Positions 51,974 to 55,379 of a stretch of 64,000 nt of DNA are shown one piece after another. The notes under the pieces were generated by a model that saw nothing but the letters and a program-made list of their open reading frames with translations, did not search any database and was not told where the DNA came from. Position 1 is the stretch's first letter, and every line of letters starts with the position of its first letter. Position numbers and translations under genes: made by a program. This stretch comes from Roseobacter sp. CCS2 (lineage in GTDB: Bacteria > Pseudomonadota > Alphaproteobacteria > Rhodobacterales > Rhodobacteraceae). The stretch is taken from the NCBI RefSeq assembly GCF_000169435.1, contig NZ_AAYB01000003.1:186001-250000 (forward strand). Direction: 5' to 3'.

Positions 51974-52190
51974 TGTATGCTCCGGTCTAGATGGCCGTGT
52001 CTGCCATCAACATTAGCGAAAATCACCGTCATCTGCCAGCCGAACCCCATGAGGTAAAGCCGCATTGTGACCTGATGCGCTATATGACACCGCCTGTTTT
52101 CAAGCAGAACTAATACGCCTAGGGGCATTGCAGACTGATACTAGCGCCTGTGCCCTAGACGTATCGCCGACCACCTGCTACGCATAGCGC
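51974..52190. other. 217-bp upstream region of the cysS leader
   Basis: No gene was found between the small membrane protein gene and the leader peptide at 52191. The stretch must contain the promoter for the cysS transcript, but only weak -35/-10-like elements (TTGCAG near 52126) are visible. Confidence 0.4.
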
Positions 52191-52235
52191 ATGAAGAGCA
52201 TCTGCATCATTACCTGCTGCATTATTATCTGCTGA
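52191..52235 (+). CDS. Ile/Cys-rich leader peptide upstream of cysS-cimA
   Basis: A 14-codon frame, MKSICIITCCIIIC, with six Ile and four Cys codons. It is framed by an in-frame TAG two codons before the ATG and a TGA at 52233. The operon that follows encodes Cys-tRNA ligase and citramalate synthase, the committed step of an isoleucine pathway. No Shine-Dalgarno is visible, so it may be translated from a leaderless transcript, as is known for trpL in Sinorhizobium. A 10-bp hairpin (52241-52250 with 52287-52296) follows the stop. Stalling at Cys or Ile codons could thus couple expression of the operon to supply. Confidence 0.6.
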   Translation: MKSICIITCCIIIC

Positions 52236-52318
52236 CATCAGTCGCGGGTTGCTCTTTCACGTTTCAAATCAAAACTGAACTTGGTAAGCCCGCGGCGTAA
52301 CGCACGTGCGAGGCACCT

Positions 52319-53752
52319 ATGACCACCATCCGCCTGAACAACACAAAGACCCGCAAGCGCGAGGACTTTATCCCGATTGATCCGAAAAACGTGCGTTTGT
52401 ACCTTTGCGGACCAACGGTCTATGACCGCGCGCATATCGGCAACTTGCGCCCGTCGCTTGTGTTTGACGTGCTGTTTCGTTTGCTGAAAGAAGTGTACGG
52501 CCCAGATCACGTCACCTACGTGCGCAACTTCACGGATGTGGATGACAAGATCAATGCGCGGGCCGCTGAAACGGGCCGGGCGATTGGCGATATTACGGCG
52601 GAAACGATTCAATGGTATCATGATGATCTGGATGCGGTTGGCTTGCAGCGCCCAACGCACGAACCGCGCGCAACCGATCACATCGCGCAGATGATCGCGA
52701 TGATTGAGGTGCTGATTGAGAAAGGCCATGCTTATGCCGCTGAAGGCCATGTGCTTTTTGCGGTGGAAAGCTATGACGCTTATGGCGCGCTGTCTGGCCG
52801 GTCCATCGACGATATGATCGCCGGTGCGCGGGTGGAAGTGGCCCCCTACAAGCGTAATCCGATGGATTTTGTCCTTTGGAAGCCGTCTGGCGATGGTGTG
52901 CCGGGGTGGAACAGCCCTTGGGGCTATGGTCGTCCGGGTTGGCATATTGAATGTTCGGCCATGTCGTTGGAATTGCTTGGCGAAAGCTTTGATATTCATG
53001 GCGGCGGCAATGATTTGCAATTCCCGCACCACGAAAACGAGATTGCGCAGTCAGCCTGCGCCCACCCCACAGGCGAATTTGCGCGCTACTGGGTGCACAA
53101 TGAGATGTTGCAGGTCGAAGGTAAGAAGATGTCCAAGTCATTGGGCAATTTCTTTACGATCCGCGATCTGCTGGATCAGGGTGTTCCCGGCGAAGTCATC
53201 CGTCTGGTGATGTTGGGCACCCACTATGGCAAGACGATGGACTGGACCGAGACGCGGCGCGCCGAGGCTGAAGGCACGTTGCGCAAGTGGTATGGCATTT
53301 TGCAAGGGCACGGCTTTGGGCCTGAGTTGATCGCAGCACTAGAGGCCGAGGGCAAATGGCAGCCGGATGCAGAGTTTATCGGCGTGCTGGCCAATGATCT
53401 GAACACGTCGGGCGCTCTGGCGCGCTTGCATGTGTTGGCCAAGGGCAAAACGCCCGTGGCCTTGGCGGGCTTTGCCTATGGCATGCAGATGCTGGGGTTG
53501 GTCAATGACTGGTCCGCGATCCCGCAGTTTGATGGCGGTGAGGCCGGATCAGGTGTTGCACCGGCAATTGCGACGCGCGTTGATGCATTGCTGGCGGATC
53601 GTGCGGCGGCCCGCGCGGCCAAGGATTGGGCGCGCGCTGATGAAGTGCGCGATATCCTGAACGCTGCCGGTGTGCAGGTCACCGATGTGGGCGGGCAGGC
53701 GACCTGGGCGCCCGGGCCAGATTTTAACGCGGCCAAGCTGGAGGGGCTCTGA
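52319..53752 (+). CDS. cysS: Cysteine--tRNA ligase
   Basis: Class I synthetase of 477 residues. The zinc-site/ATP region is [27 protein letters not shown] (Cys about 28, HIGN for HIGH), [10 protein letters not shown] and [19 protein letters not shown] hold further Zn and Cys-binding residues, and the ATP loop is KKMSKSLGN (about 266-274). It follows a 14-residue Ile/Cys-rich leader by 83 bp. GAGG lies five bases before the start, inside a small potential hairpin. The stop is one base from the cimA start, so both are one operon. Confidence 0.97.
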
Positions 53753-53753
53753 C

Positions 53754-55379
53754 ATGGGCAAAGAACGCCTCTACCTCTTTGACACGACACTGCGTGATGG
53801 GGCGCAAACCCAAGGGGTCCAGTTTTCGGCGGGGGAAAAGCACCAGATTGCCGCCGTTCTGGATAAGCTTGGTTTGGATTACATCGAAGGTGGTTGGCCC
53901 GGCGCAAACCCAACAGATACTGAATTCTTTGCAGACCCACCCAAGACAAAGGCGACCTTTACCGCCTTTGGCATGACCAAGCGCAATGGCCGGTCGGCCG
54001 AAAATGACGATGTATTGGCGGCGGTGATGAACGCGGGTACGCCTGCGGTCTGTCTGGTGGGCAAGGCGCATGATTTCCACGTGACCACCGCCTTGGGGAT
54101 CAGCCTAGAGGATAACATTGAAAATTTGTCCGCCAGCTTTGCCCATATCAAGGCGCAGGGCCGTGAGGGGCTATTTGATGCGGAACATTTCTTTGATGGC
54201 TATAAGGCAAACCCTGACTATGCATTGCAGGCGATCCATGCGGCCTATGATGCGGGCGCGCGGTGGATTGTACTGTGTGATACCAACGGTGGTGTGCTGC
54301 CCCACGAGGTGTCCGAGATTGTGACAGCGGTGATTGCCAGCGGTATCCCCGGCGATCATCTGGCGATCCATACGCATAACGATACTGAAAATGCGGTGGC
54401 CAATACCTTGGCGGCGGTTCTGGCCGGGGCGCGGCAGGTGCAAGGCACGCTGAATGGCTTGGGTGAACGGTGCGGCAATGCCAACCTGACAACGCTGATC
54501 CCCACACTGCTGTTGAAAGAACCTTACGCGAGTATGTTTGAAACGGGCGTATCACCCAAGGCCCTGAAAGGCCTGCGAAAGGCGTCGCGGATGCTGGACG
54601 ATATCCTGAACCGGGTGCCCGCCAAGCAAGCCCCCTACGTGGGGGCATCAGCCTTTGCGCATAAATCTGGGCTGCATGCCAGCGCTATTGCCAAAGATCC
54701 CACGACATATGAACACATTGATCCGGCCGCGGTGGGCAACAGCCGGATCGTGCCCATGTCCAATCAAGCCGGGCAGTCGAACCTGCGCGCGCGTCTATTG
54801 GATGCAGGGCTTGACGTTGCAGCCGATGATCCGGCGTTGCCGCGCATTATCGAACGGATCAAAGAACGCGAGGCGCAGGGATTTTCCTACGATACCGCTC
54901 AGGCGAGTTTCGAGTTGCTGGCACGCGAGGAGTTGGGCACGCTGCCGCGGTTTTTCGAGGTGAAACGCTACCGGGTGACGGTGGAGCGGCGTAAAGATAA
55001 GCGCAACCGGATGGTGTCGATTTCAGAAGCGGTTGTGGTGACGAAGGTCCACGGCAAGAAGATGCTGAACGTCAGCGAAAGCCAGGGCCCGGATGGGTCC
55101 GACCAGGGTCCGGTCAACGCGTTGTCACGTGCGCTGTCAAAGGACCTCGGGCCCTATCAAGAGATTATTGATGACATGCAATTGGTCGATTTCAAGGTGC
55201 GTATCACCAATGGCGGCACCGAGGCTGTGACGCGCGTGATCATCGACAGCGAAGACGGCAAAGGCCGCCTCTGGTCCACCGTGGGGGTCAGCGCCAACAT
55301 AGTCGATGCATCCTTTGATGCGCTGATTGATGCGATCAATTGGAAACTGATCCGCGATGGGGCAAAGGCCGAAGCATGA
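53754..55379 (+). CDS. cimA: (R)-citramalate synthase
   Basis: Condenses pyruvate with acetyl-CoA to citramalate, feeding isoleucine synthesis independently of threonine. The 541-residue protein has LFDTTLRDGAQTQGVQFSAGEK (about 8-29), the metal-binding HTHND block (AIHTHNDTENAVANTL, about 202-217), GLGERCGNANL and a C-terminal regulatory dimer domain beginning about residue 410. The long CimA-type form (not LeuA or NifV) is clear from the FFADPPKTKATFTAFG region. The start at 53754 follows GAGGGG. The stop overlaps the next gene by ATGA. Confidence 0.95.
   Translation: MGKERLYLFDTTLRDGAQTQGVQFSAGEKHQIAAVLDKLGLDYIEGGWPGANPTDTEFFADPPKTKATFTAFGMTKRNGRSAENDDVLAAVMNAGTPAVCLVGKAHDFHVTTALGISLEDNIENLSASFAHIKAQGREGLFDAEHFFDGYKANPDYALQAIHAAYDAGARWIVLCDTNGGVLPHEVSEIVTAVIASGIPGDHLAIHTHNDTENAVANTLAAVLAGARQVQGTLNGLGERCGNANLTTLIPTLLLKEPYASMFETGVSPKALKGLRKASRMLDDILNRVPAKQAPYVGASAFAHKSGLHASAIAKDPTTYEHIDPAAVGNSRIVPMSNQAGQSNLRARLLDAGLDVAADDPALPRIIERIKEREAQGFSYDTAQASFELLAREELGTLPRFFEVKRYRVTVERRKDKRNRMVSISEAVVVTKVHGKKMLNVSESQGPDGSDQGPVNALSRALSKDLGPYQEIIDDMQLVDFKVRITNGGTEAVTRVIIDSEDGKGRLWSTVGVSANIVDASFDALIDAINWKLIRDGAKAEA

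Follow-up and report, generated by a model that had tools for sequence, protein, structure and literature searches.

An isoleucine- and cysteine-rich leader conserved upstream of cysS-cimA, probably a tRNA-sensing transcription attenuator

We analysed a 64,000-nt stretch of Roseobacter sp. CCS2 DNA (the window), in which a short open reading frame (ORF) lies upstream of cysS and cimA. The spacing between the cysS stop codon and the cimA start is 1 nt (cimA from 53754), and the two genes are probably co-transcribed. Both products score above their NCBIfam cut-offs: that of cysS matches TIGR00435 with 437.8 bits (cut-off 340), and that of cimA matches TIGR00977 with 581.7 bits (cut-off 450). The short ORF begins with ATG at 52191, its codons run through 52232, and TGA follows at 52233-52235. 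Its peptide, MKSICIITCCIIIC, contains 6 Ile and 4 Cys, with tandem Cys at codons 9-10. An earlier note on this DNA had described an Ile/Cys-rich 14-codon frame ahead of cysS and cimA, and the frame and both genes are present as claimed. The features are as follows.

52155..52160, + strand: -35-like element CTAGAC, 17 nt from the -10-like element (family logo T 0.77 at -35, G 0.59 at -34)
52178..52183, + strand: -10-like element CTACGC (logo A 0.67 at -11, T 0.54 at -12, C 0.80 at -1)
52191..52235, + strand: leader ORF MKSICIITCCIIIC including its stop (from sequence, conservation and codon content)
52193..52200, + strand: predicted 5' strand of helix P1, GAAGAGCA, codons 1-4 (pair-swap test 0/5000 in Rhodobacteraceae and 0/5000 in Hyphomicrobiales)
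52227..52232, + strand: predicted 5' strand of helix P0, ATCTGC, codons 13-14 (RNAalifold on 44 sequences; swap tests)
52241..52250, + strand: predicted arm 1 of helix P2, GTCGCGGGTT (swap test 0/5000, also 0/5000 in Hyphomicrobiales)
52244..52249, + strand: predicted 3' strand of P0, GCGGGT, also inside P2 arm 1 (RNAalifold, swap test)
52250..52257, + strand: predicted 3' strand of P1, TGCTCTTT (helix search, swap test, alignment pairing)
52253..52264, + strand: U-rich tract, overlapping and then following the P1 3' strand (7/12 T)
52287..52296, + strand: predicted arm 2 of P2, AGCCCGCGGC (swap test)
52310..52313, + strand: putative cysS Shine-Dalgarno (SD) sequence GAGG (from sequence; common among relatives)
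52319..53752, + strand: cysS, cysteine-tRNA ligase (TIGR00435 above cut-off)
53754..55379, + strand: cimA, citramalate synthase (TIGR00977 above cut-off)

The promoter-like elements were judged against the sigma-70 consensus. Their logo values come from 153 Rhodobacteraceae leaders, and the logo of 57 Hyphomicrobiales leaders resembles them; the window itself has A at -34, against the G (0.59) of the family logo. With this -10-like element, transcription would begin at the A of the leader ATG or close to it, which would make the mRNA leaderless. A start site downstream of 52191, which the earlier note had named as evidence against the leader, is not what these logos suggest, for the inferred start coincides with 52191.

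To follow the leader across alphaproteobacteria, the regions upstream of cysS were gathered through cysS itself and not through the leader. They came from named GTDB contigs, from close relatives (the best-scoring 30 of 60 genomes), from the family with each genus represented by a single genome (114 inspected among 195 that had a cysS match: the window's own, the 29 best-scoring further ones, and 80 + 4 others), from the class, and from the order of a Rhizobium genome (90 of 118 genomes), to which we give the name Hyphomicrobiales; family and order assignments are inferred from named relatives. Outside the sample lie G001, G019, G022, G024, G030 and G031, which belong to the window's genus but have a more distant cysS, and one sampled locus has a distant cysS (L069, 49% identity). 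Two of 288 loci were dropped because they had less than 200 nt ahead of cysS (L037, L074). A strict rule called a leader where an ATG ORF of 9-20 codons, with its stop 40-150 nt upstream of cysS, contained at least one Cys, at least one Ile and at least 35% Ile plus Cys; RNA structure was not used, and the rule was written after leaders had been seen. For the Hyphomicrobiales a looser rule, likewise framed once sequences had been seen, required at least 30% Ile plus Cys.

The leader is real and conserved. The strict rule called it at 141 of 168 Rhodobacteraceae loci, a set that counts the window's own copy (L081) and has one genome in duplicate (L188, L221; 140/167 without the duplicate), and at 89 of the 109 Rhodobacteraceae loci sampled one per genus. 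The loci are not independent: the window's genus alone contributes 30 of the 168, and all 30 carry the leader. In that genus the leader and the stretch following it are conserved by eye and the DNA farther upstream is not. Over all loci the strict rule called 153/286, compared with 1/286 reverse-strand regions and 4/1430 Markov shuffles; under the looser rule 57/90 Hyphomicrobiales loci had a leader, with 1/90 and 3/450 in the controls. A chance ORF was therefore rejected, the controls lying far below the observed counts. The alignment check proposed in the earlier note thus came out in favour of a conserved short Ile/Cys ORF. Outside the 168, 12 of 118 loci had a leader call, nine of them named Hyphomicrobiales, and the non-Rhodobacteraceae loci with cimA within 300 nt had 3/39. 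Fifteen weaker leaders that fail the strict rule were added by hand (12 in Rhodobacteraceae); they are not among the 141, and the 153 Rhodobacteraceae leaders of the RNA and codon analyses include them.

A motif model (R1) matched 156 of 198 Rhodobacteraceae genomes, once each, of which 42 supplied training sequences and match by construction. Among the 150 R1 places listed, 122 had a cysS place listed as well and were compared with it; all 122 hits lie 8-74 nt upstream of cysS. The window's own genome has one hit, and no further copy of the motif was found there at E up to 1.

Two side observations were made in other alphaproteobacteria. A further order (family f5) has weak leader candidates: short ORFs of the MFTRPAQCWFGRICR and MFSAAQNARAAICICG type upstream of cysS-cimA, possibly diverged leader forms (L291, L292, L294, L295, L297, L309, L315). 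At L228, L229, L246, L278 and L284, where the leader is absent, cysS seems to be preceded by a gene with a C-terminal LLPLIG-like motif, which we take to be perhaps gltX.

The earlier note knew of no such leader sensing both Ile and Cys; the leader is already in print, as the Cys attenuator uORFC-8-2 upstream of cysS in Rhodobacterales (PMC8632094, as far as its accessible text goes). According to that text, uORFC-8-2 has a conserved AUG, tandem Cys codons that are mostly UGC, stems, a terminal U run and a proposed ribosome-mediated attenuation. The same features appear in our data: the leader adjoins cysS (141/168 Rhodobacteraceae loci), carries tandem Cys codons (117/153 leaders) and is followed by a U-rich, though interrupted, 3' tract. 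The Cys pair usually occupies positions 14-15 in uORFC-8-2 and 9-10 here, where the numbering of the paper may differ. In the accessible text uORFC-8-2 is "exclusively" Rhodobacterales, whereas the leader described here also occurs in Hyphomicrobiales; it is read there as Cys-sensing, without Ile, cimA or a start-codon helix in its description. The terms isoleucine and citramalate have counts of 0 in PMC8632094.

The codon content speaks to whether Ile is part of the signal. From codon 5 to the end, 146 distinct Rhodobacteraceae ORFs contain 39.5% Ile, 30.3% Cys, 1.4% Leu and 0.6% Val. That Leu and Val together make up only 2% points to codon identity, not hydrophobicity, as what counts. The mean leader has 4.15 Ile and 3.02 Cys in Rhodobacteraceae, and 4.54 Ile and 1.74 Cys in Hyphomicrobiales. 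The fraction of Ile plus Cys reaches 0.95, 0.96 and 0.91 at codons -3, -4 and -5, compared with 0.46 to 0.76 at codons -10 to -6, and 142/153 leaders have both residues within codons -5 to -3. Codon -3 is Ile in 92% of Rhodobacteraceae and 98% of Hyphomicrobiales leaders. ATT and ATC are mixed at codons -7 and -8 (60:37 and 41:54), whereas codon -3 is ATT in 130 leaders and ATC in 4, so the constraint there is in part not on the amino acid alone. Both of the remaining frames are also skewed (Ala/Ser/Leu and His/Leu/Tyr), and the comparison of frames therefore does not discriminate. Gaps within the ORF in alignments A1 and A2 mostly come in threes, a pattern that is not independent evidence because the aligned rows were picked as open frames.

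The presence of the leader tracks that of cimA. Among Rhodobacteraceae the leader was called at 135/153 loci with cimA downstream and at 1/8 without (Fisher 7e-6), where one locus counted as cimA-less (L115) belongs to a genome that has cimA 1.8 kb downstream. Among Hyphomicrobiales the counts were 49/75 with cimA and 0/5 without (p 0.007). The cimA-linked loci that escape the rules number 18 in Rhodobacteraceae, of which seven have no leader by eye (L015, L167, L178, L181, L204, L206, L210), and 26/75 in Hyphomicrobiales. In Rhizobium, Ensifer and Mesorhizobium (L051, L052, L055, L062) cimA has the same orientation and lies about 3 kb downstream. At two Ensifer/Rhizobium loci (L052, L056), the stretch between cysS and cimA was seen to encode a pair of small proteins that carry the motif GGCQCG...CHCRMCQK, presumably GFA-domain proteins, and one further protein that we take for a proline iminopeptidase.

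Genomes in which cimA is missing or displaced were also examined. Among the 198 genomes, cimA is absent from G070, G104, G160 and G202 though the downstream DNA is intact; these have only weak cimA matches of 32-35% identity, which are probably LeuA. G102 has its cimA elsewhere in the genome. R1 had no hit in any of these five genomes (0/5); G160 nonetheless has a Cys-rich leader. Conversely, the R1-matched genomes that lack a full cimA (G169, G173, G207, G210, G233, G246) have contigs that end inside cysS or at most 158 nt past it, and G157, for which no R1 hit is listed, has the leader MGTAIRICGICITV on a contig that ends 658 nt after cysS. Two cimA-less genera differ. Genus g168 has no leader in 7/7 species (L417-L422, L123), while genus g126 keeps it in 3/3 (MDWICCLCRA, MDWICCLCRA and MEWICCPC at L119, L415 and L416), each with 3 Cys and 1 Ile. 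In g126, then, the Cys codons persist in the absence of cimA, unlike most of the Ile codons. The cases amount to few independent events. As for the surrounding DNA, the g168 loci have a short gap before cysS, with a terminator-like sequence at the end of the gene upstream, and those of g126 have a rearranged downstream hairpin and may represent a Cys-only natural variant. In G173 (L353) the leader MMTCCPSTPCCCRR has 5 Cys and no Ile, and its contig ends in cysS; since another contig carries a cimA fragment of 37 residues, G173 is a possible exception to Ile codons going with cimA.

These data bear on the published reading (PMC8632094, accessible text), in which the leader senses Cys only and the Ile codons would be incidental. 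The tandem Cys codons, the Cys codons kept by cimA-less g126, the G173 leader with Cys and without Ile, and the near-fixed ATT at codon -3, which could be an RNA constraint, are all in keeping with it. Nevertheless, Ile is the commonest residue while Leu and Val are almost absent, Ile is nearly invariant at codon -3 in both groups and outnumbers Cys in Hyphomicrobiales, and leader presence tracks cimA. We consider Cys-only sensing unlikely.

RNA structure was examined by comparison between leaders. Three helices were predicted. In P1 the first leader codons pair with a segment about 14-22 nt past the stop; in P0 the last leader codons pair with the adjacent G-rich segment (GCGGG); P2 is a 10-bp hairpin (52241-52250 with 52287-52296) that competes for this G-rich segment and corresponds to the 10-bp hairpin that the earlier note had placed after the leader stop. 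When partners were swapped between Rhodobacteraceae leaders, the mean for P1 fell from a score of 14.86 to 12.99 and that for P2 from 20.61 to 19.36, and 0/5000 permutations reached the observed value in either case; two control segments beside the P1 test gave 2072/5000 and 916/5000. P0, first found by RNAalifold, gave 29/5000. In Hyphomicrobiales P1, P0 and P2 each gave 0/5000, with one control weakly positive (184/5000). Judged from these sequence comparisons, all three predicted helices have partner-specific pairing in both groups. In alignment A1, 79.6% of P1/P2 cells pair, against 76.0% when shuffled and 43-52% when slid, and the covariation score is 0.162 against 0.126 (0/500); 71/500 shuffles reached the observed number of doubly changed pairs and 162/500 that of pair types, so that two of five measures are not above shuffles. 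RNAalifold alone gave 5 pairs with a covariation term of almost nil (44 sequences). The single-sequence fold of the window is not unusually stable (z -0.12), and support for the structure therefore comes from comparison. P1 is short, its best helix having only 4 bp in 14/149, and closes a long loop. P1 and P2 cross, overlapping by one base in the window, and might form a pseudoknot. The shared or crossing strands suggest that P1/P0 and P2 exclude each other, and the computed exclusivity of P1 and P2 is partly built in because the folding program forbids them together. With the ORF masked, the mean for P2 rose from 0.29 to 0.69 and P1 was 0 by construction; P1 was 0.55 in the unmasked fold, and a ribosome at the stop gave 0.46 for P1 and 0.18 for P2.

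Past the G-rich strand lies a candidate termination element. The 12-nt U-tract site has a mean of 6.43 T over 150 leaders, compared with 1.64 farther downstream, and at least 6 T in 114/150; the tract is interrupted and not a clean T run. The earlier statement that no U-tract follows the hairpin holds for P2 itself but misses the U-rich tract inside the P2 loop (52253-52264), right after the P1/P0 strands. A terminator scan found no + strand terminator at the leader locus. This negative scan and the imperfect tract fit another output of the same sensing, in which P1/P0 versus P2 would gate access to the cysS start, or Rho would terminate transcription on untranslated RNA; P2 arm 2, moreover, ends 22 nt ahead of the cysS ATG and would form too late for antitermination. 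Against this, T is strongly enriched exactly past the G-rich strand, and SD accessibility shifts by a mean of only +0.046 on ORF masking (positive in 107/153). Pairing of the P2 region into the last 35 nt ahead of cysS is not partner-specific (4360/5000 permutations reach the observed value), on which ground SD sequestration by the P2 region was rejected. The GTGC-GAG-GCAC hairpin in which the earlier note placed the cysS ribosome-binding site is not conserved, and CTGCGCGAGGC, for example, stands there in relatives; in place of the translational control suggested there, the evidence favours termination at the P1+P0/U-tract element. We regard these other outputs as rather improbable.

Overall, we think it likely that the leader regulates the cysS-cimA operon by ribosome-mediated transcription attenuation, with charged tRNA-Ile and charged tRNA-Cys as the signals sensed. 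This reading is based on the conservation of the leader, its codons, the specificity of the pairing, the spacing of the promoter elements, the U-tract and the cimA association, and the leader-peptide attenuator with Ile and Cys codons suggested in the earlier note gains support from the conservation, codons, helices and cimA link. Transcription would start at the A of the leader ATG, and ribosomes would then read the ORF from a leaderless mRNA. With Ile- and Cys-tRNA in good supply, the ribosome would complete the leader and leave; P1, with the first codons, and P0, with the last, could then pair with one contiguous strand past the stop, the Ile/Cys codons would bulge out, and RNA polymerase would terminate at the U-rich tract. 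When Ile or Cys is short, the ribosome would stall over codons -5 to -3 and mask both P1 and P0. The Ile/Cys constraint peaks exactly where a stalled ribosome would cover P0; given the size of the ribosome footprint, a stall at codons -10 to -6 would leave P0 free. Since P2 arm 2 is transcribed after the U-tract, P2 cannot be a kinetic antiterminator, and the stalled ribosome itself would play that part; polymerase would read on, and P2 would then take the G-rich strand. The result would be an OR gate, in which shortage of either Cys or Ile raises both the Cys-tRNA ligase and the enzyme that opens the citramalate route to Ile. If the leader start region is also the terminator strand, ribosome loading and termination would exclude each other directly. 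For the full combination, namely a dual Cys/Ile OR gate over two orders, a leaderless start region that doubles as terminator strand, and an Ile half kept or lost with cimA, we put the chances at roughly even.

Several known systems offer comparison. In ribosome-mediated attenuators, leader control codons match the operon and structures compete; here the codons match, and the competing structures are backed by covariation. The enterobacterial thrABC (Thr and Ile) and ilvGMEDA (Ile, Val and Leu) attenuators are multivalent, and the present leader likewise has, in a single peptide, control codons for more than one amino acid, both tied to operon genes. Unlike in those systems, the amino acids are Cys and Ile, a tRNA ligase is joined to a biosynthetic enzyme, the leader is probably leaderless, and the terminator strand would include the leader start. 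T-boxes in Firmicutes also place tRNA ligase genes under the control of tRNA charging, but they read the tRNA directly, without translation, whereas the leader here would be translated. The T-box covariance model of Rfam had no match at the leader region; no Rfam family matched at gathering, and at E up to 5 there was one minus-strand chance match far below the gathering score.

The leader of Sinorhizobium meliloti trpL, another alphaproteobacterial leader, is leaderless and has 14 codons, but it concerns Trp and a different operon (PMC10117765, accessible text). This shared design (PMC10117765, accessible text; PMC7298713) raises the thought that the peptide, or the leader RNA once released, has a further action in trans, as reported for peTrpL/rnTrpL of S. 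meliloti. Peptide and RNA sequences differ between genera except for the Ile/Cys content, helices and U-tract, and we find such action highly improbable.

A literature search that covered mostly non-subscription titles found no paper that describes an Ile/Cys leader for cysS-cimA or gives cimA such a role, and cysS does not occur in the accessible text of PMC11109978 and PMC2965389. What is new relative to the accessible text of PMC8632094 is the Ile half, the cimA link, the Hyphomicrobiales homologues and P1 with the leader start as the proposed terminator strand.

A possible reason for coupling Cys to Ile lies in metabolism. In E. coli, threonine deaminase is inhibited by an excess of cysteine, which leaves the cells starved for Ile (Harris 1981, quoted in the accessible text of PMC5376351), and citramalate synthase bypasses threonine deaminase. 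In Roseobacter denitrificans grown on pyruvate, the citramalate route gives about 80% of Ile (PMC2749216, accessible text). Genus g126, which has a leader but no cimA, provides a comparison already made in nature. If the proposal is true, the published Cys-only reading would be widened and the motif extended to Hyphomicrobiales; a translation-based logic gate would couple two amino acids that share no pathway, joining supply, through an Ile biosynthetic enzyme, to use, through Cys-tRNA ligase.
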